A stretch of 21,490 nt of DNA from a virus, in IMG/VR virus record IMGVR_UViG_3300025120_000663, positions 1-21,490 of that record. One strand, given 5' to 3'. Position 1 is the stretch's first letter. The number at the start of each line of letters is the position of its first letter. The position numbers and the translations under genes were made by a program. The notes below the pieces were generated by a model. That model saw only the letters and a program-made list of their open reading frames with translations, was not told the origin of the DNA and ran no database searches. Positions 9,708 through 19,279 of the stretch are shown piece after piece.

Positions 9708-10090
9708 TGAGGCATGAAGAGTTTATGAATGGCAAGTTTCGTGAAGAAAAAATGGAGATAAGTACCTTGCCAAGCGAGATGGCACAGGATATTATTAGTA
9801 CAGCAGACCGCATTGGTAGAAAAATTGATGCCGCAGAACAAACAGGTAAAGAAGCATATGGTAATGTTGACATGGTAAACAGTCCCTCACACTATAATCA
9901 ATCCGGTATTGAGTGTATTGCAGCTATTCAAGCAGCACTAGGGCCAAACTTTAAATATTACTTACAAGGAAATATTATGAAGTACCTATGGCGTTTTGAT
10001 TACAAAGGCAGACCACTAGAAGATTTAGAGAAAGCACAGTGGTATCTTAATACTCTCCTAGAAGATGTGGCGGCTAGTGATGAGAGTTAA
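9707..10090 (+). CDS. DUF3310 family protein (phage nucleotide-kinase-like)
   Basis: Residues 54-121 carry the DUF3310 signature: VNSPSHYNQSGIECIAAI, then QGNIMKYLWRFDYKG, then DLEKAQWYLNTLL. Proteins of this family are widespread in phages and are often annotated as nucleotide kinases after T7 gp1.7. That activity is not shown by any P-loop here. The first 53 residues (many E/K, helical) are an extension without known match. ATG 9707 overlaps the upstream stop by one base and is preceded by AAAGGA. An internal Met57 would give the bare domain but has a weaker ribosome site. Its place before the ribonucleotide reductase fits a role in nucleotide supply. Confidence 0.82.
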   Translation: MRHEEFMNGKFREEKMEISTLPSEMAQDIISTADRIGRKIDAAEQTGKEAYGNVDMVNSPSHYNQSGIECIAAIQAALGPNFKYYLQGNIMKYLWRFDYKGRPLEDLEKAQWYLNTLLEDVAASDES

Positions 10091-10247
10091 AATGTTTGTC
10101 TCACTAGATATTGATGAAGAAGAATATCCTATACCGTCTGACGGTAGAGTAGATGAAGAGTTAGAAGATGCGTTTTTAGACTTGATACATGACATAGAAG
10201 GTGTTACAGTAAAATCAATTAGAGCAGTTATGGAGAATAAAGAATGA
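10080..10247 (+). CDS. Small acidic hypothetical protein, about 55 aa
   Basis: The product (MRVKMFVSLDIDEEEYPIPS...) has a beta strand, an acidic loop and the helix ELEDAFLDLIHDI, followed by VTVKSIRAVMENKE. This looks like a small alpha/beta phage protein of unknown function. Starts at 10065, 10080 and 10092 are all in frame. I prefer 10080, which gives a basic MRVKM start overlapping the DUF3310 stop, but this is not certain. The TGA overlaps the reductase start (ATGA, 10244-10247), which argues that it is translated. Confidence 0.65.
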   Translation: MRVKMFVSLDIDEEEYPIPSDGRVDEELEDAFLDLIHDIEGVTVKSIRAVMENKE

Positions 10248-12184
10248 ATAATTATCTACCAACAGATTATCAAAACTTTATCGCGCTATCACGGTATGCA
10301 CGATGGAAAGAACATGAACAACGCCGTGAGACATGGGTTGAGACAGTAGAACGCTACTTTGACTATATGGAAGGGCATCTAGGTGCTAACTACCAGTACA
10401 AATTACCTGATGACCTACGCAGTGAACTAGAGCAAGCTGTACTGAATCAAGACATCATGCCTAGCATGAGAGCCTTGATGACATCTGGCCCTGCACTAGA
10501 CCGTTGCCACGTTGGTGCATACAACTGTTCTTACGTCCCTGTGGATAGCCCTAGAGCATTTGATGAGACTATGTACATCCTAATGTGTGGCACAGGTGTA
10601 GGCTTCTCTGTGGAGCGTGAGAACGTAGACAAGATGCCTATTGTTAATGAAGTGATGCACGATACAAATACCGTAATCAAGGTAGGTGATAGCCGCCCCG
10701 GATGGGCAAAGTCTCTACGTGAACTTATCTCTTTATTGTATGCTGGTCAGATACCAAAGTGGGATGTTTCAGAGGTACGTCCTGCAGGTGCAAGGCTAAA
10801 GACATTTGGTGGTCGTGCAAGTGGACCAGCACCATTAGAAGAACTGTTTGATTTTGTCATTGCTAAGTTCAAGAACGCAGCAGGTCGTAGGCTATTCCCT
10901 ATTGAATGCCATGATATTATGTGTAAAATTGGTGAAGTTGTAGTTGTAGGTGGTGTACGCCGTAGCGCACTCATCAGCCTGTCTAACTTAAATGATGACC
11001 AAATGGCACATGCTAAGTCAGGACAGTGGTGGGAGAATGAAGGGCAACGTGCCTTGGCTAACAACTCTGTAGCCTATAAGGGTAAGCCAGAGATGGGTAC
11101 ATTCATGCGTGAATGGGTATCATTGTATGAATCTAAGTCGGGTGAGCGTGGTATCTTTAATCGTCAGGCAGCACAGACACAAGCAGCTAAGAATGGCAGA
11201 CGAGATATACAACATGATTTCGGATGCAATCCTTGCAGTGAAATTATCTTACGTCCATATCAGTTCTGTAACTTGTCAGAGGTAGTTGCCCGTGCGGGTG
11301 ACACGCAGCAGTCGTTACGTGAGAAGGTACGCTTGGCTACAATCTTGGGTACGTTCCAATCAACACTGACGGACTTCAAATATCTGCGTAAGGTGTGGCA
11401 GAAGAACACAGAGGAAGAGCGTTTGTTGGGCGTGTCACTGACTGGTATCATGGACAACGACTTGCTAAGTGGTACATCTGCACACCTTGGCAAGAACATT
11501 GGTCAGACACTGGAGACGCTGCGTGACACAGCAGTAGAGACTAATGCTGCTATGGCTGAACAGCTTGGTATTCCACAGTCAACAGCCATCACATGCGTCA
11601 AGCCTAGTGGTACAGTGTCACAGCTTGTAGACAGTGCGTCTGGTATTCATGCAAGGCACAACCCACACTACATTCGGACTGTACGTGGCGATAACAAAGA
11701 CCCGCTTACACAGTTCTTGATATCGGAAGGTATCCCAGCAGAGCCAGATGTTATGAAGCCAGAGTCTACTACAGTGTTCAGCTTCCCTATGGCATCTCCA
11801 CGTTATGCTGTTACACGTACAATTTTAACAGCCATTGAACAGCTTGAGTTGTGGCTTACCTATCAGCGTTACTGGTGCGAACACAAACCATCAGTAACAA
11901 TCTCTGTGAAGGAAGAAGAGTGGATGGATGTAGGTGCTTGGGTATACAAACACTTTGATGAAGTGTCAGGCATCAGCTTCTTGCCGTTCAGTGATCATAC
12001 ATACAAGCAAGCACCATATCAGGACTGTACAGAAGATGAATATAATGCTATGTTAGTACAGATGCCTAATAGTGTTAACTGGTCAAAGCTGAAAGACTTT
12101 GAGAAAGAAGACACAACTACAGGTGGACGTGAGTTAGCGTGTACTGCAGATGCCTGTGAAATTGTAGACTTGAACGCAGCATGA
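10244..12184 (+). CDS. nrdJ: Class II (adenosylcobalamin-dependent) ribonucleotide reductase
   Basis: A 646-residue reductase that makes deoxynucleotides for phage DNA. It resembles the monomeric ribonucleoside-triphosphate reductase of Lactobacillus leichmannii (RTPR). Visible are the first redox cysteine Cys95 (YNCSYVP), the loop RLKTFGGRASGP (184-195), the active centre NPCSEI (329-334, thiyl Cys331, Glu333), partner Cys342 (FCNLSE), CVKPSGTVS (451-459), and the C-terminal swinging pair CTADAC (633-638). Being class II, it needs B12 but neither oxygen nor a second subunit. It is somewhat shorter than the bacterial enzyme (about 740 residues). Start and stop each overlap neighbours as ATGA, so it sits inside a coupled chain of small genes. 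Confidence 0.93.
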   Translation: MNNYLPTDYQNFIALSRYARWKEHEQRRETWVETVERYFDYMEGHLGANYQYKLPDDLRSELEQAVLNQDIMPSMRALMTSGPALDRCHVGAYNCSYVPVDSPRAFDETMYILMCGTGVGFSVERENVDKMPIVNEVMHDTNTVIKVGDSRPGWAKSLRELISLLYAGQIPKWDVSEVRPAGARLKTFGGRASGPAPLEELFDFVIAKFKNAAGRRLFPIECHDIMCKIGEVVVVGGVRRSALISLSNLNDDQMAHAKSGQWWENEGQRALANNSVAYKGKPEMGTFMREWVSLYESKSGERGIFNRQAAQTQAAKNGRRDIQHDFGCNPCSEIILRPYQFCNLSEVVARAGDTQQSLREKVRLATILGTFQSTLTDFKYLRKVWQKNTEEERLLGVSLTGIMDNDLLSGTSAHLGKNIGQTLETLRDTAVETNAAMAEQLGIPQSTAITCVKPSGTVSQLVDSASGIHARHNPHYIRTVRGDNKDPLTQFLISEGIPAEPDVMKPESTTVFSFPMASPRYAVTRTILTAIEQLELWLTYQRYWCEHKPSVTISVKEEEWMDVGAWVYKHFDEVSGISFLPFSDHTYKQAPYQDCTEDEYNAMLVQMPNSVNWSKLKDFEKEDTTTGGRELACTADACEIVDLNAA

Positions 12185-12309
12185 TTGAAGGAATGGGCAT
12201 GCCTACATGGTGGCAGTGGTGGCTGATACTAGCTATCACTGTCAACACCACAATCAATTTGATTGTATTCTTTAAGCACAGATTTAAACGGAAAGGTGTT
12301 GACAAATGA
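12181..12309 (+). CDS. 42-aa single-span membrane protein
   Basis: ATG overlaps the reductase TGA (ATGA) and its own TGA overlaps the next ATG the same way, so this tiny frame fits the operon exactly. The product starts MIEGMGMPTWWQWW, has a hydrophobic span of about 17-20 residues (roughly 13-31, WWLILAITVNTTINLIVFF) and ends in a basic tail KHRFKRKGVDK. By the positive-inside rule the C terminus would face the cytoplasm. A holin or a membrane-anchored regulator is possible, but no family is recognised and the region is a nucleotide-metabolism operon. Confidence 0.65.
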   Translation: MIEGMGMPTWWQWWLILAITVNTTINLIVFFKHRFKRKGVDK

Positions 12310-12509
12310 GAGAGATGATGATACAAACATTAAAGCAGCACGCAAGGGCTAATACCCAGTTGCATTGTATGAATATTGAAGTTTATCTTAAAAACCCGGC
12401 AGGTATCGGAGAGCATTCAGATATTATGGAAGCTATACAAGCTGAGTTAGATAAGATGGCTATGCATGAAGACAGACTAGATATTCTGGACAACTACTTT
12501 AATGAGTAG
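12306..12509 (+). CDS. Conserved small marine-phage protein, 67 aa
   Basis: The product contains the segment VYLKNPAGIGEHSDIMEAI followed by a helix (AELDKMAMHEDRLDILDNYF). I recognise this GIGEHSDI-type pattern from many small hypothetical proteins of marine phages, including T4-like cyanophages. No function is known to me. The N-terminal part (MREMMIQTLKQHARANTQLH) is helical and histidine-bearing, without metal motif spacing. It overlaps the membrane-protein gene before it by 4 bases and the next small gene by 8 (ATGAGTAG). Confidence 0.7.
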   Translation: MREMMIQTLKQHARANTQLHCMNIEVYLKNPAGIGEHSDIMEAIQAELDKMAMHEDRLDILDNYFNE

Positions 12510-12639
12510 GTTTGTCTGGAAACGGGGCGAGGATTGGTTGATTGCTAATCCACCCCGCAAGTCTGAACAGTGGGGAGAATGGCTAAAGGAAAAGGAAAAA
12601 GATGAAAACAGGAAGACCAGAGAAAACGATACATCCTGA
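12502..12639 (+). CDS. 45-aa basic/acidic tryptophan-rich hypothetical protein
   Basis: The frame starts in the ATGAGTAG overlap with the previous stop, the same eight-base junction found at 144-151. The product (MSRFVWKRGEDWLIANPPRK, then SEQWGEWLKEKEKDEN) has four tryptophans and a strongly charged C-terminal helix. It overlaps the next gene by 38 bases in another frame, which weakens the case slightly. No family recognised. Confidence 0.5.
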   Translation: MSRFVWKRGEDWLIANPPRKSEQWGEWLKEKEKDENRKTRENDTS

Positions 12640-12982
12640 CTTTCAAGAGTTCTTTAGAAAAGATGTTAATAGTAAAATGACTGTTAGAAAGTTAGCAAAT
12701 AAGTATAATGTATCTGTAGGAAAAATACACAGTTTAAAAAAGGAGATGAAAATGGCAGAAGAGAATAAGCAGATGGTTACAATTGATGGGGAAGAATATG
12801 CACTAGATGACTTGACAGACCTGCAGAAGTACTTATTAGAACAAGTAATGGACTTGAAGGGCAGGATAAAAATTGCACGTATGCATCTTGATCAGCTTAA
12901 AGTTGCCAGTGCAGAGTTTGGTAGAAGCCTATCTGAATCAGTAAGACTAGAATCTCAAGGGGAAGAGAATGAAAAGGCGTAA
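12602..12982 (+). CDS. HTH-DUF6447 fusion protein, 126 aa
   Basis: The N-terminal 50 residues contain a helix-turn-helix-like stretch (TVRKLANKYNVSVGKIHSLKKE, 27-48) resembling small HTH domains of the transposase/terminase-small-subunit kind. Residues 58-112 (VTIDGEEYALDDLTDLQKYL..., then helix) resemble DUF6447, a short phage domain of unknown role. The gene start ATG 12602 follows AAAGGAAAAGG. An internal ATG at 12752 has a better ribosome site (AAGGAG, 12740-12745), so a 76-residue DUF6447-only protein may also be made. It may bind DNA and could regulate the phage, but no target is shown. Confidence 0.6.
   Translation: MKTGRPEKTIHPDFQEFFRKDVNSKMTVRKLANKYNVSVGKIHSLKKEMKMAEENKQMVTIDGEEYALDDLTDLQKYLLEQVMDLKGRIKIARMHLDQLKVASAEFGRSLSESVRLESQGEENEKA
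12752..12982 (+). CDS. Nested internal start giving DUF6447-only product (76 aa)
   Basis: AAGGAG at 12740-12745 is 6 bases before ATG 12752, in frame with the 126-residue gene. The predicted product begins MAEENKQMVTIDGEEYALDD, exactly where the second domain begins. This is either a separate start within one gene or the ancestral start of a gene that later fused to the upstream HTH. Confidence 0.4.
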   Translation: MAEENKQMVTIDGEEYALDDLTDLQKYLLEQVMDLKGRIKIARMHLDQLKVASAEFGRSLSESVRLESQGEENEKA

Positions 12983-13214
12983 TGGATTAAGTAAATATGA
13001 TGCTCCACTTAAGTTACAATACGAGTGGGGACATCAAGACTTTTTTACTTGGGGTGAATCTATTGGCAAAGATAAGAAAATTAAACCAAAGGTAGAAAGG
13101 AAACTGCACCCTAACACCATGCAGTTTCGTGAGTGGCAAAGAGGCTGGAATGATGCTTACAATGCTAACCTAAAAAGGGTACAAAAGAATGAACAATCTA
13201 GAGCAAGAAGCTAG
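12969..13214 (+). CDS. Basic hypothetical protein, 81 aa
   Basis: The start overlaps the previous gene by 14 bases and follows GGGGAAGAGA. The product is basic (MKRRNGLSKYDAPLKL..., ending KNEQSRARS). It contains FREWQRGWNDAYNANLKRV (about 54-72), an aromatic G-W-x-D-A-Y motif seen in small phage and RMF-like proteins. RMF relationship is only a faint resemblance. No catalytic motif, signal peptide or membrane segment. Confidence 0.6.
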   Translation: MKRRNGLSKYDAPLKLQYEWGHQDFFTWGESIGKDKKIKPKVERKLHPNTMQFREWQRGWNDAYNANLKRVQKNEQSRARS

Positions 13215-13236
13215 ACAGTGGATGAAGGAGAATAGG

Positions 13237-13575
13237 ATGAGTCAAATTACAGGAACAACCTATCAAGAGAAGGCATGTGAGACTGCCATCTTCCCAAAAG
13301 AAAAGGCCACAGAGTATTTAACTCTGGGCCTGACGGGTGAGGCGGGAGAGATTGCTAATAAGGTAAAGAAGTTTATTCGTGACGGTGCTACACAGGATGA
13401 ATATGAAGCCAAGAAGATTGAAATTGGCTACGAGATTGGGGATGTAATGTGGTACTGTGCAGTGCTAGCACAAGAAATGGGGATGGACCTTGGACATATC
13501 ATGGATAATAACTTACAGAAACTGGCTGATCGCAAGGCTCGTGGTACTCTTTCGGGTAGTGGGGATAATCGTTAG
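13237..13575 (+). CDS. mazG: MazG-like nucleotide pyrophosphohydrolase
   Basis: The all-helical MazG fold hydrolyses nucleoside triphosphates. In phages it has been linked to lowering host (p)ppGpp or cleaning nucleotide pools. Metal ligands are visible as EAGE (Glu35, Glu38) and EIGD (Glu66, Asp69) around GLTGEAGEIANKVKK and YEIGDVMWY. I chose ATG 13237 because AAGGAG (13225-13230) is 6 bases upstream and the family homology begins at TYQEKA. An in-frame ATG at 13189 would add 16 residues but has no good ribosome site and overlaps the previous gene. Length 112 fits single-domain phage MazG. It is the last clear enzyme of the forward block. Confidence 0.88.
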   Translation: MSQITGTTYQEKACETAIFPKEKATEYLTLGLTGEAGEIANKVKKFIRDGATQDEYEAKKIEIGYEIGDVMWYCAVLAQEMGMDLGHIMDNNLQKLADRKARGTLSGSGDNR

Positions 13576-13591
13576 GGTACTGCCTATAACA

Positions 13592-13699
13592 ATGATTATT
13601 CTGTGGTTGTCATATGTGATAGGGATGGCACTTACAAATACTATATGTGATTGCGCCAAAGATTTTAATGGTTGGTGGGAGTTAGAATACTGGACATAA
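13592..13699 (+). CDS. Possible 35-aa membrane peptide before the terminator
   Basis: ATG 13592 lies 16 bases after the MazG stop and the frame ends directly at the terminator stem. The peptide begins with a short hydrophobic segment (MIILWLSYVIGMAL), then two cysteines and an acidic aromatic tail (NGWWELEYWT). No convincing ribosome site precedes it; AGGG is 14 bases away. The frame is open upstream to 13490 inside MazG, but that part is likely a shadow. It may be chance. Confidence 0.35.
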   Translation: MIILWLSYVIGMALTNTICDCAKDFNGWWELEYWT

Positions 13700-13731
13700 A
13701 AAGAGGGGGCTTAATTGCCCCCTTTTGTTAT
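13699..13731. terminator. Bidirectional rho-independent terminator between convergent blocks
   Basis: GGGGGC (13705-13710), loop TTAATT, GCCCCC (13717-13722), flanked by A-run on the left (AAAAAGA) and TTTTGTTATTTG on the right. Read rightward it is a GC hairpin followed by a T tract, and read leftward it is a GC hairpin followed by TCTTTTTA. It separates the forward replication block from the reverse virion block. The stop of the reverse gene (13728-13730) lies in its T tract. Confidence 0.9.
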
Positions 13732-16700
13732 TTGTATATTATGCCTCTTTCGTATATACGCTTAAGATTTTTCTTAGAAAGCTGATCTTTATATCCCGTT
13801 TCAGGCATGTTATATTCGTCAAGCATGTACGCAAAATCTTGATCCTCTGCAAAAGAACCTTTTCCTGCTTTTGCATCATATTCTTGTTCCATTATTTTTC
13901 TAATTTGTGCTGGAATTTCTCTATAATAACGAACTCTATTTTTTCGTTGATAGTCTTTTTCTGTATCACCTATTTTATATTGACTAACGTCATTTACAGC
14001 CTCTGCTTTAATAATTTGTACTATGTCTCTTAGATATTTTCTTTTCAATGTATCGGTTTCTATGCTTTGATAAAAAGGCGAAATGACCTCGTCAGACAAT
14101 ACATTTTCTATATGATTACCTAACAGTGCTTTTGCTTCATTATCTAGTTGAGGATCAAGTGTTCTTCGTGGAGCAACTTCAACCCAATCAAACTGCAATC
14201 TATTTAACTCATTTTCTGCGTAGTTTCTACGTTCTTCAAATGTAACTCCTGTAATTTGTTTAAGTATCGGATTTACATTTCTTAACGGTATTGTTTTAGT
14301 TGTTGATTGCATAGCCTCTCTAGGATTAAGAGGTGAATACAAAATAGGATCATCTGTTGGCACAGGTAGACTACGTGTTGCCTGTTTAAACAGATAAGGC
14401 CAAAATTGTAAATCTTCATTTAGCGGTACATTTATATATGCTGGGTCATACTGAGCATATATATCTTTAATCATTCCCCCACCAACAGCAAAAGAACCTA
14501 AATAGTTACCTAAAAATTTAGCTACTCCTGCTTCAATCCTATCCGTGCCTTTTGCTTCTGCTGTTTCACCAAGCAGTAATTTAACAGAACCATCAATAAT
14601 ATCTAGCCCCGTGCCAGACCGAAACTGACTACCAGTCAATGCTTCAATTGCCTCTCTAGTATTTACTTTTTCAAGAGCAACACGGTCATTATCATGTAAT
14701 GGAGGAAGACCGTACTCTGTTTCAAATACACCGCCGGGTTTTCCTAAACGATAAAGCATATCTGCTATGTAAGCAGGAGCCATAAATGGTCCAAGAGCAG
14801 CTTTAGCATTTACTACACCACCTGAAGTTGGGTCTTTATACTCATAGAATTTAGTGTTCTCATCACCCATATGTACACGCATAGCAAAGAAAGCACCTAT
14901 TGTAGCAATACCGCTAAACTGCTTGCCCATTCTTATAGACATAGCCTGTGATCCACCGCCAGTTTTATTTAATATGCCACCCATGTTTAGCACACCTAAA
15001 ATGGGAGTATGTTCATATACAAACCTAAACTGATTTATTAAGTAACGTGGGAATGGTACAACTGCTGATCCAAAAGTACTGCTTGCACCTTCAATAAAGG
15101 TATCAGCAAAAGAATTAAAAAATCCTTCTCTTCCTTTAAATTTTCCTGTTTGGTAGGTAAAATCTAAAGCCTCGTCCATAGCACGAGCAATAGCCTTTTC
15201 ACCTACAAACCCAAACTTTTCTTTCTTTAAGAGATCGCTAAGACCGTTTATTCCTTGCTTTTTAAATATACCATCTGGGTCAATAGAAATCATTTTATCT
15301 ATTTCCCGTGAAAATATAGCAGACTTAAACATGTTGTCTGACATAGTGTTAAAAGTATTAGAAAATCTAGCTGCTCTTAAAAGTGGGCTAGTTTCTGCAC
15401 CAGTTAGATTTGCAATATCTCCTAACTCTCTAAATAATTCTTGTGCTTGTTGCGAATTACCCAAGCGTGGATCACGAAGCATTTTTGTTAAAATAGCTGT
15501 TTCTTGTGACTGCATACCAAAAAACATATCATCAAATAAAATACCTTTACCACCCGCCTTCATTTGTGCAACACCAGTACGAACAGAAAAGTCTGCCGCA
15601 GCCTTGAGTTCTTTATTTCCAAAAGCAGATACTTGTTTTAGTTTTCCACCAGCATAATTTATAGAACCAGTTCCTAAATTTTCTAGAGAATATACATAGT
15701 TTCTCCAAAGTCCGTTTGTAGTATTTCTAACAGTTGTTGCTGCCTGTACAGTCATAAAACCAATACGTGTTTTATTTAACGCAGTAATAAAATTACCAAC
15801 ACCCAGTAAATTAAACGCCGAAGAATCTAGTTCTTTTAATTTAACATAAGCAGTTTCGGTCCTAGAGCCTAAGTCAATAAGTGATCTATCAATTTGAGTA
15901 AGACTTTCTTTAAGTTCATTTGAGGCGGCTCTAGAAAGTCTACCCTGTGCGCCAAGTTTAGCACCTGCCTCTGATATATCTGCTACATAGAATGCACTAA
16001 ACTGATCAAGTGTTATGCCGTGATCTTTCATAATCTTTAACATACCGTCAGTGCTAATTTGACCACCCTTTAATCCACGAGCAATGCGAGAAGTAATACG
16101 CTCTTTTGCGTCTTCCTTACTGCCTTTAACTACACCTTCTTTTGGGCCAATTTTTCGCATTGTTTGAGTTGCTGCTGCAGCGATATTTTTTATCTCCATT
16201 TCTTGAAGACTTGTTGTTAGGTTTTCATAACGAGAAAATGCTTTTTTGCGAGTACCTGTTAACTTTTTCTTTATCTTTTGTCCTTCTTCAATAGCACCTT
16301 CGGTTGTCTCTTTTAATGACAACTTTAGCATCTCTTCATTTTCTTTAGCAATCTTTCCATAAGTTTTGCTATTAAATATTGGACGTGTTTTTTTTGCATA
16401 AGCTGTTTCAATAATTCTTTTCTGTTTACCCAATTCTTTGATTGCGTATTGTTCTGCAACATTAGAACGTATAGTTCTTTGTGCGCCACTAAGTGTACCA
16501 AGAACACCGCCAGTCAAAGCAGACAAGCCTGTTGCCAAACCTACATTAGTTAAATCTACTTCATCGTAGTCTTCTATAGTTTCAACACGAGTTAATTCCT
16601 GTGCGGTCACACCAGCACCCGCACCTATAGCTTCAACTACACTTGCACCGATACCTGTTTTGTAACCACCTTCTTTTACACCACTAGCTATATTAGCAGC

Positions 16701-17258
16701 ACGTTGTCTTAATGAGACACTTACAGGGTCTTCCCCTTTAATTTTTTTAGCAGCACGTTGTCTTGCCGTATCAAATGTTACATCATCTAGTTGTTTCTTT
16801 GTAACTTTTTGACCAGCTTTTTTAGCCGCTTGTTTTACTATTTCACGAATACCTAATTTTACACCCTGCTGTGCAGCAAGTGTACCTGCTTTTGCAGCAC
16901 CAAATGAAAACATACCAGCATAAGTTGAAGGCGCAGTAAAAACGCCACCCAAATAATCTTGAGCAGCATCCAACCCAAAGTCACTATCCATGCGGTCATA
17001 GGTATCCATAAGCCTACCCACACGCAATCTACCTTCATCGTCTGTCTGATTATTTACATAATACAGATCACGCATAGCAGTAACTTCATTTACATTTTGG
17101 TATCTAAAGTGTTCCATAAATGCATCATAAATTTCTTCAGGGCTACCAAGGTCTTTATCCTCACGATCTGCAAGAAATATTTGTGCATCCTCTAAAAACT
17201 TATCATTATTAATAAGAAAGTCTTTATTTAAAACAACTTCATTTAATTCTTCTGCCAT
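13728..17258 (-). CDS. Large probable internal virion/ejection protein, 1176 aa
   Basis: No enzyme domain is recognised, and a lytic transglycosylase motif as in T7 gp16 is not evident. Size, position as last gene of a probable virion block, and composition (long Ala/Gly-rich helices, e.g. GLATGLSALTGGVLGTLSG around residues 237-255, charged coiled stretches 270-350, and a C-terminal KR-rich tail) suggest a podovirus internal protein that enters the host envelope on infection. A motif RQRAA is duplicated 18 residues apart (about 166-188). The start ATG 17258 has only a weak ribosome site and lies 1 base after the stop of the upstream -1-frame extension, so coupled translation is likely. A tape-measure-like role is an alternative. 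Confidence 0.6.
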   Translation of the reverse strand: MAEELNEVVLNKDFLINNDKFLEDAQIFLADREDKDLGSPEEIYDAFMEHFRYQNVNEVTAMRDLYYVNNQTDDEGRLRVGRLMDTYDRMDSDFGLDAAQDYLGGVFTAPSTYAGMFSFGAAKAGTLAAQQGVKLGIREIVKQAAKKAGQKVTKKQLDDVTFDTARQRAAKKIKGEDPVSVSLRQRAANIASGVKEGGYKTGIGASVVEAIGAGAGVTAQELTRVETIEDYDEVDLTNVGLATGLSALTGGVLGTLSGAQRTIRSNVAEQYAIKELGKQKRIIETAYAKKTRPIFNSKTYGKIAKENEEMLKLSLKETTEGAIEEGQKIKKKLTGTRKKAFSRYENLTTSLQEMEIKNIAAAATQTMRKIGPKEGVVKGSKEDAKERITSRIARGLKGGQISTDGMLKIMKDHGITLDQFSAFYVADISEAGAKLGAQGRLSRAASNELKESLTQIDRSLIDLGSRTETAYVKLKELDSSAFNLLGVGNFITALNKTRIGFMTVQAATTVRNTTNGLWRNYVYSLENLGTGSINYAGGKLKQVSAFGNKELKAAADFSVRTGVAQMKAGGKGILFDDMFFGMQSQETAILTKMLRDPRLGNSQQAQELFRELGDIANLTGAETSPLLRAARFSNTFNTMSDNMFKSAIFSREIDKMISIDPDGIFKKQGINGLSDLLKKEKFGFVGEKAIARAMDEALDFTYQTGKFKGREGFFNSFADTFIEGASSTFGSAVVPFPRYLINQFRFVYEHTPILGVLNMGGILNKTGGGSQAMSIRMGKQFSGIATIGAFFAMRVHMGDENTKFYEYKDPTSGGVVNAKAALGPFMAPAYIADMLYRLGKPGGVFETEYGLPPLHDNDRVALEKVNTREAIEALTGSQFRSGTGLDIIDGSVKLLLGETAEAKGTDRIEAGVAKFLGNYLGSFAVGGGMIKDIYAQYDPAYINVPLNEDLQFWPYLFKQATRSLPVPTDDPILYSPLNPREAMQSTTKTIPLRNVNPILKQITGVTFEERRNYAENELNRLQFDWVEVAPRRTLDPQLDNEAKALLGNHIENVLSDEVISPFYQSIETDTLKRKYLRDIVQIIKAEAVNDVSQYKIGDTEKDYQRKNRVRYYREIPAQIRKIMEQEYDAKAGKGSFAEDQDFAYMLDEYNMPETGYKDQLSKKNLKRIYERGIIYK
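16693..16764 (-). repeat. Short direct repeat inside the 1176-aa gene
   Basis: TTAGCAGCACGTTGTCTT (18 bases) occurs at 16693-16710 and 16747-16764, exactly 54 bases (18 codons) apart. It encodes the repeated RQRAA motif. In-frame spacing suggests a small local duplication of an 18-residue helical unit rather than a regulatory repeat. Confidence 0.6.
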
Positions 17259-17259
17259 A

Positions 17260-17553
17260 TTATTTTAATAACACCCCTGCATGTATCATTGCTTGGTTAC
17301 CCTTCATTCCGGGATTAGCGTCCCTTATTGCGTTTTGTACTGCTCTTCTAGCTTTGTTTCTGCTCAATCCACCAGTAGTTTTTCTAAATGCAGCTACAGC
17401 CGCTTGTATGTCAGGTGTATTTAAATTTAAAGTGCCTGTTGTTTTTGTAGTTACTACCACTGAATTATTTGGAAGGTAAGCAGAAACATCTCCACTATTT
17501 CCACCATCTTCATCGTCATCATTACTTTCATCATCTGATGTGTCGTCACTTAC
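17260..17553 (-). CDS. -1-frame C-terminal extension of the 405-aa protein (97 aa)
   Basis: Directly after the A12 run, the -1 frame stays open for 97 codons. It begins VSDDTSDDESNDDDEDGG, an acidic linker typical between domains, then NNSVVVTTKTTGTLNLN, then a basic helical segment (FRKTTGGLSRNKARRAVQNAI). There is no ATG near its beginning. The only candidate independent start is GTG at 17460, without a ribosome site. The simplest reading is that it is fused to the 405-residue protein by frameshifting or is in frame in the true sequence. The stop (17260-17262) is 1 base before the next gene's ATG. Confidence 0.65.
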   Translation of the reverse strand, partial: VSDDTSDDESNDDDEDGGNSGDVSAYLPNNSVVVTTKTTGTLNLNTPDIQAAVAAFRKTTGGLSRNKARRAVQNAIRDANPGMKGNQAMIHAGVLLK

Positions 17554-18767
17554 TTTTTTTTTTTTGTTAGGTTCTTAAATAACTCTGCATCCAGAATATT
17601 ACCATCTGATCTACCAAAAGTTAGTATACCAAAATCCTCTTCCTCAAATCCTGTTTGCTCTGTGCCAATTGCAACTAATTTATCAGATATTTCGTAACCT
17701 TTATTTTCTAAAAACGATTGAATTAGAAAACCAGCTTCCTGCATCATTTCGTCATTACCTGAGTTTTGCATTTTTGCTAAAATAGTAACAGCTTTATTAA
17801 TTTCCATTTGTAACTCAAACGCACCATCTATAGTGTCTTCAATACGTACACGATCACCTAGCATAGTGCTACCAGTTGTCTGTAATTTGTATGTGCTTGC
17901 CACAGCACTTGTTATCATATTAGCATACCTATCAAAATCTGCACCTGAAAATTCTTTTGCTTCACCTGTTTGTTTACGAGTATCCTCTCTTTGCAAAATA
18001 GCTATTTTAGATGCAATATGTTGAATTTTTGGGTCTTTAGATAAATCATTAGGAGTTTCAGTTTGTGCTACTGCGTCCTTCATCAAACCTTGAAAGCGTT
18101 TTACTTCTACTCTAAATGGATCATCTGTACGAATAATTAAATCCGCATCATAACCTGTTGATGCAATAAAGGGTAGTGCTTCGTCAGGATCATCCATTAC
18201 AGTTTCTAAAGCAGCAATGCTTTGTTGTGCTTCGTCTTCAACGGTTGGTCCACCAAAAACTCTATCTAAGAAAGTAGGTTTAACAGGAATGCCAGAATCT
18301 GTTAAATTAACAGGTGTAGGTTTACGGGTAATACCACCAGCAATATTTCTAAATGAGAGATTTGTACCATTAGCAGCAGCCGTGGCATTAATTTCGCTTA
18401 GTTGACTTATACCAAATCTTTTATTTTGATCATATAATCTTTTAGCTTCTGCTTGTGCGCCAGCTAAAGTTTTGGTTTCAATTAGGTACTGTGCAGCACT
18501 AAGAACTTCTTGTGAATTAGCAGATACACCATCAGGTGTTAGACTAGCAGCAAGTGATTTAACTTGTGCCTCATTAGCATCCAGATCATTAATATACTCT
18601 TGCTCAATACGATTTGTTTTTTCAAGGCCATAGGTGCGTAACTGGTCAAGCGTTTTGTTTCTACGATCTTCACCTTTGTCTATTGTTTCAGTAACGCCTC
18701 TAGCTATACCTGCCACAAAATCAGGATCAGTTATATAATCTGCTATATTTTTTAAACCGGCAAACAT
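17550..18767 (-). CDS. Virion-block protein of unknown function, 405 aa, ending at A12 run
   Basis: Not recognised. It is mostly helical (MFAGLKNIADYITDPDF..., then Ala-rich stretches such as VLSAAQYLIETKTLAGAQAE), with a Pro/Gly linker near residues 139-170 and no catalytic motif, signal or membrane segment. The start follows AGGAG and shares a base with the previous stop (TAATG). The zero frame ends in NLTKKKK and TAA because the last codons are read from twelve consecutive A. A -1 slip there continues for 97 codons, giving a product of about 502 residues. Location between small structural-type genes and the giant protein suggests a virion component. Confidence 0.65.
   Translation of the reverse strand: MFAGLKNIADYITDPDFVAGIARGVTETIDKGEDRRNKTLDQLRTYGLEKTNRIEQEYINDLDANEAQVKSLAASLTPDGVSANSQEVLSAAQYLIETKTLAGAQAEAKRLYDQNKRFGISQLSEINATAAANGTNLSFRNIAGGITRKPTPVNLTDSGIPVKPTFLDRVFGGPTVEDEAQQSIAALETVMDDPDEALPFIASTGYDADLIIRTDDPFRVEVKRFQGLMKDAVAQTETPNDLSKDPKIQHIASKIAILQREDTRKQTGEAKEFSGADFDRYANMITSAVASTYKLQTTGSTMLGDRVRIEDTIDGAFELQMEINKAVTILAKMQNSGNDEMMQEAGFLIQSFLENKGYEISDKLVAIGTEQTGFEEEDFGILTFGRSDGNILDAELFKNLTKKKK
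17554..17565 (-). promoter_or_regulatory. A12 homopolymer, candidate slippage site
   Basis: Twelve T on the + strand read as twelve A in the mRNA of the 405-residue gene, 2 codons before its stop. Runs of this length are known to cause ribosomal -1 slips and RNA-polymerase slippage. They are also the commonest place for sequencing length errors. One extra A or a -1 slip joins the gene to the 97-codon extension. Confidence 0.6.
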
Positions 18768-19279
18768 TATGTTCTCCTAGACATTAAACCAGTGTTCTCT
18801 ATTACAGGCTCGTCTTGTACTTCCTGTACAGACTGCTCCTGCACAGGCTCCATCATATCTTTATTATCAGCTTCTGATTGCAACAACTTACCTATAGTTG
18901 CCGTTGTTACAACATTTTGATCAAGTTCCTTGTTATCAGCCAAGCCTGTGTCATAATCTACACCTGCAGCATCACCAATAAGCATCATAGTTTCCATGAT
19001 AACTGGTATCATTAGAATGCCTACATCAACAGAGTGCTTACCTTCCATTACTCCTGTTAGTTGCAAGCTATTAGCAATGGTAGTTAAAGGTACACCAGTT
19101 TTCATTGTGTGAATAAGGTTTTTAGCAAAGGTATCATCTGCTATTTGTGTTATGTAATATTCTGCCGCATCATCTACGTTTGGAATATCAGCAGGTTGCT
19201 GCCAAGGTCTAGCACCCAACTCATGTGTCAAAGACATGCCGGGAATAGGACGATCAAAAGATTGTTCGTTAGGTTGCAT
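18767..19279 (-). CDS. Conserved marine-phage structural-type protein, 170 aa
   Basis: Residues 8-27 (FDRPIPGMSLTHELGARPWQ), 57-83 (a short helix, then VPLTTIANSLQLTGVMEGKHS) and VDVGILMIPVIMETMML (84-100) match a pattern I recall from hypothetical virion-associated proteins of T4-like cyanophages and pelagiphages (PIPG-S-LT..., MEGKHS-DVG). This is from memory and was not searched. The segment 84-103 is hydrophobic but not long or clean enough to be a sure membrane span. The C-terminal 40 residues are acidic and low-complexity. The start follows AAAGGATATGAGA and overlaps the preceding gene by 11 bases. Confidence 0.65.
   Translation of the reverse strand: MQPNEQSFDRPIPGMSLTHELGARPWQQPADIPNVDDAAEYYITQIADDTFAKNLIHTMKTGVPLTTIANSLQLTGVMEGKHSVDVGILMIPVIMETMMLIGDAAGVDYDTGLADNKELDQNVVTTATIGKLLQSEADNKDMMEPVQEQSVQEVQDEPVIENTGLMSRRT

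Follow-up and report, generated by a model that had tools for sequence, protein, structure and literature searches.

We analyzed a stretch of 21,490 nucleotides of viral DNA (IMG/VR record IMGVR_UViG_3300025120_000663, positions 1 to 21,490, hereafter the window), in which a gene for a 405-aa protein on the minus strand ends at a long run of A. The run is exactly 12 A long and is followed by G and TAA, and the 3' end of the 405-aa open reading frame (ORF) reads ...ACA AAA AAA AAA AAG TAA, with the codon AAG directly before the stop. When the junction is read in the -1 frame the product is NKKKKVSDDTSDDESNDDDEDGGNSGDVSAYLPNN..., and this frame stays open as far as a TAA at 17262-17260. The -1 segment reads NKKKKVSDDTSDDESNDDDEDGG... 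and includes DGGNSGDVSAYLPNN..., and the N-terminal part of the protein lies in the 405-aa ORF. A single T (17259) separates the TAA of the -1 frame from the ATG of a gene for a giant protein of 1176 aa. There is no useful ATG within the -1 segment, the first methionine being residue 88 of 102, and its sole candidate start, a GTG (17460), lacks a Shine-Dalgarno-like sequence. The first-pass annotation had described this layout of an A12 run, the end of the 405-aa ORF, an open -1 frame with no ATG or ribosome site of its own, and a 1-base gap to the giant gene, and every element is present where it was placed. The features are collected in Table 1.

Table 1 Features around the A-run in the window.
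Feature	Position	Strand	Basis
Run of 12 A	17554..17565	-	Sequence; holds A AAA AAG in phase with the 405-aa frame
405-aa ORF, N-terminal helical body of a ~502-aa gene	17550..18767	-	Homologous to roughly the first 400 residues in the 512-aa L002 protein; its family matches HMO-2011 gp23 by N-terminal profile
Stop TAA of the 405-aa ORF	17552-17550	-	Directly 3' of the run
-1 frame segment, Asp-rich linker and C-terminal three-helix domain	17260..17565	-	Continuous with the 405-aa part in relatives
1176-aa giant gene	13728..17258	-	Next gene downstream; homologous to CRP-2 gp44 and, at profile level, to HMO-2011 gp22
170-aa gene upstream	18767..19279	-	Place equals that of HMO-2011 gp24 (164 aa); position only

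The earlier assignment of the window to the HMO-2011 type is borne out by its 680-aa DNA polymerase, which is 71.9% identical to that of Puniceispirillum phage HMO-2011 over the full length. The 661-aa gene at the right end of the window is 71% identical to HMO-2011 gp25 over 93%, and the order 661 - 78 - 170 - 405(+97) - 1176 aa resembles that of HMO-2011 gp25, gp24, gp23 and gp22. The last three of these (164, 502 and 1128 aa) have one-base overlaps with each other. A homolog of the giant protein is detectable in three isolate genomes, CRP-2 (gp44) among them. HMO-2011 gp23/gp22 and CRP-2 gp45/gp44 occupy the same place and order in the module, with the upstream gene followed directly by a gene of more than 1100 aa, and they resemble the window in the giant gene and, for gp23, in the N-terminal profile of the upstream gene. 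The upstream gene encodes 502 aa in HMO-2011 and 565 aa in CRP-2, while the joined reading of the two frames in the window gives ~502 aa, the length of gp23. However, in both of these pairs the upstream gene is uninterrupted and its longest A/T run is 5-7. From their place in the morphogenesis module, the 502-aa and 1176-aa proteins are presumably virion or DNA-ejection proteins.

Next, we asked whether the -1 frame encodes protein. Its 97 open codons have a chance probability of ~7e-5, given a stop density of 0.093 per codon as found in the off-frames of the window's own genes. The nearest relative that covers the junction is a metagenomic locus (L002), whose giant protein is ~75% identical to that of the window. 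Its upstream gene is a single frame of 512 aa that spans both parts seen in the window: the first ~400 residues align with the 405-aa ORF at 48% identity, and the C-terminal 84 residues match the -1 segment (aligned residues 428-510; 42%, E 2e-14). The C-terminus of the corresponding protein in a second locus (L003) likewise matches the -1 segment (E 4e-8). The AlphaFold2 model of the L002 protein comprises a helical body, a disordered region (394-452) and a three-helix C-terminal domain (458-510), with a pLDDT mostly of 81-91, and alignment with the relatives positions the A-run of the window at the border between body and linker. Thus, the 405-aa part and the -1 segment belong to one protein, the latter being its linker and C-terminal domain, as the first-pass annotation had supposed when it read the -1 frame as a fused extension. 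In the -1 part the window and L002 are too divergent (dN 0.65, dS 1.15) for these values to be decisive, and an ARRAV..AI motif in the -1 segment is shared with relatives. The locus has an A-run of at least 8 at the frame break and coding sequence on both sides, one of the features expected of a programmed transcriptional realignment (poly-A) gene. For practical purposes, a single gene should be annotated that joins the 405-aa ORF with the -1 segment.

These features make it very improbable that the gene is decaying, with only the 405-aa form made and the C-terminal domain being lost. The stop does directly follow the run in the recorded frame, but the remaining 97 codons have not acquired a stop and have kept the residues shared with relatives, and a linker and C-terminal helical part also appear, by weak alignment, in distant relatives.

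No convincing family was found in Pfam and PHROGs for the 405-aa, -1 or giant parts. A structure search of the L002 model against the PDB gave nothing significant, and the fold therefore points to no function. The -1 segment has a weak match (E 0.003) to phrog_6708, a family of unknown function.

We then compared the junction with 29 non-redundant loci that cover it, 22 metagenomic and 7 from isolates (CRP-1, CRP-2, CRP-13, HMO-2011, CRP-345, CRP-207 and CRP-603). A first scan for relatives of the giant protein had yielded 25 loci in IMG/VR, and several more came from a profile scan. A comparison with homologs had been proposed at the outset as a check on whether the run is kept or the genes are fused, and the outcome was fused genes and no kept run. 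All 29 loci carry one uninterrupted gene, of roughly 300-570 aa, directly before the giant gene. No A/T run in these upstream genes is longer than 8, nor is any of them similar to the A12 site; the run and frame break, whose conservation would be expected of a programmed realignment gene, are conserved in 0/29. Since the gene is intact and lacks a comparable A-run in every relative, there is no conservation of either the run or a two-product arrangement, and both run and split are private to the window's record. The ancestral state is a single gene, of which the -1 frame is a coding part.

L002 and L003 show strong homology in the upstream gene, while it is weak in the other metagenomic relatives, at about 15-19% to L002. 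For HMO-2011 gp23 the homology covers the N-terminal 110 residues only (hhalign, probability 96.7%). In CRP-345 homology of the upstream gene was looked for and not found, and for CRP-345, CRP-207 and CRP-603 the gene was assigned by position. Direct searches of phage records with the 405-aa and 102-aa pieces, of viral contigs with the 405-aa protein, and of genome contigs with the giant protein gave no match. Degenerate DNA patterns spanning the run and the C-terminus found no near-identical strain across the junction. A contig from another sample (L004) is 99.7% identical to positions 9831-15026 with no gaps over 5196 bases, which indicates that the window sequence is otherwise reliable; this contig ends short of the run.

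The A12 is by far the longest homopolymer in the window, which has a GC content of 40%, and the only one above 8, the next being a T8. When the same proteins were recoded synonymously, the longest run reached at least 12 in 41 of 300 recodings. Because the protein carries KKKK at this point, AAA usage is enough to account for the run. Among the IMG/VR contigs that were fetched, A12 runs flanked by coding sequence coincide with a change of frame in 10 of 16 cases, a rough yardstick, as normal gene boundaries also count as splits and most of the A12 contigs had been selected because they contain the run. The corresponding counts are 58/306 (19%) at A7 and 10/68 (15%) at A8. Therefore, a frame break at A12 is unremarkable in the IMG/VR collection fetched. 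Four other viral contigs in this set (L065, L118, L163 and L181) combine an A11-A12 run, at which the frame changes, with a long open frame before and after it, with 417/245 open codons flanking the run in L065 and 510/91 in L118. They are candidates for slippage, homopolymer errors or plain gene boundaries.

Together, these comparisons suggest that the locus is probably one ordinary gene of ~502 aa in an HMO-2011-type marine podovirus, with a poly-A tract that is specific to its lineage and recorded at an out-of-frame length, and with no dedicated switch. In the window's lineage the KKKK where the helical body meets the acidic linker is written as an unbroken A-run, and the recorded run length shifts the linker and C-terminal domain into the -1 frame. 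The split probably reflects homopolymer length, either as a miscount in sequencing, amplification or assembly or as a drifting variant in the population. Full-length protein would arise from an in-frame run in most genomes, or from slipping of RNA polymerase and ribosomes on A12, while the giant gene would be translated by ordinary stop-start coupling, as in the relatives. Whether the product has ~405 or ~502 aa depends on a single base of the run. The first-pass annotation had named an indel at this homopolymer as the main alternative, and it is the account that fits best. In the large GeneTack survey, singleton frame breaks of one class are expected to be sequencing errors and not genuine indels (PMC3711429). 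Against this reading, however, the gapless match to L004 backs the window sequence elsewhere, and a real A11 split with functional slippage has been proven in C. rodentium tssM1 (PMC4256274).

That precedent bears on a second explanation, in which the genome truly has 12 A and transcriptional slippage, with some sliding of ribosomes, rescues a chance indel, giving the 405-aa and the full-length protein with no dedicated signals. We regard this as possible but on balance unlikely. Slippage on poly-A of this length does occur in bacteria. Transcripts of tssM1, with its A11, were measured to carry 10-15 A, about 25% of the product was full-length, and the two forms are both required (PMC4256274). 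In E. coli, ribosomes can slide along iterated AAA codons (PMC4363877). The -1 part, with the motif shared with relatives and its 97 open codons, still looks like functional protein. The likeness to tssM1 extends to the position of the run just before a premature stop, with the C-terminal domain in another frame and canonical relatives that are full-length. The two cases differ in that tssM1 was proven by resequencing, western blot and mRNA mass measurement (PMC4256274), whereas the window case is an observation on the recorded sequence. In one reporter study, E. coli RNA polymerase did not restore the frame by deletion on the poly-A runs examined, but insertion is the direction needed at the run in the window. 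A mixture of products would be expected whether the genome has 12 A or an in-frame number. If the run really is 12 A in the population, this locus would be a phage example of tssM1/spa13-type poly-A slippage, in an abundant marine phage group.

The first-pass annotation went further and proposed that slippage may set the stoichiometry of the giant protein. In this programmed arrangement a fixed A12 site would yield 405- and 502-aa forms of a virion protein at a set ratio, and only slipped messages would bring ribosomes to the giant gene, tuning a probable DNA-ejection protein. The heptamer A AAA AAG lies in phase and a stop follows it directly (...AAA AAG TAA), as in dnaX-type -1 ribosomal frameshifting, and the giant gene starts 1 base past the stop of the -1 frame. 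Gating by slippage also has a precedent in Shigella spa13/spa32, where slippage gives access to an extension that stops at the start of the following gene and influences expression of that gene (PMC5009743). However, that effect was measured in Shigella, whereas the layout in the window is present in one record only and in 0/29 relatives. The window also differs from dnaX-type sites downstream of the run: a stem-loop stimulator there was considered and rejected, with z-scores of +0.65, -0.08 and -0.31 that do not exceed chance. Inspection by eye of the sequence upstream of the run, TTTAAGAACCTAACA, revealed no clear Shine-Dalgarno-like element.

In the relatives 0-50 bases lie between the upstream gene and the start of the giant gene, or the two genes share one base, and tight coupling is therefore a general habit of the module. 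A poor ribosome site before the giant gene is likewise often seen in relatives whose upstream gene is intact, so that neither the weak site nor the tight spacing in the window is evidence for control by slipping. The -1 frame stands as part of the same protein in an HMO-2011-like phage, while the proposed role of the slip as a control device is not supported, and we consider a programmed switch improbable. The locus illustrates how one homopolymer in one metagenomic record may be mistaken for a recoding switch, and how the gene structure is settled once relatives are compared.

Two further features were observed in the window. An integrase is encoded at 1675-2568 (phrog_1, E 1e-27), and the phage may therefore be temperate. 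GGGGG (13705-13709) and CCCCC (13718-13722) lie where the rightward and leftward gene blocks converge, between their ends, as expected of a two-way terminator hairpin.
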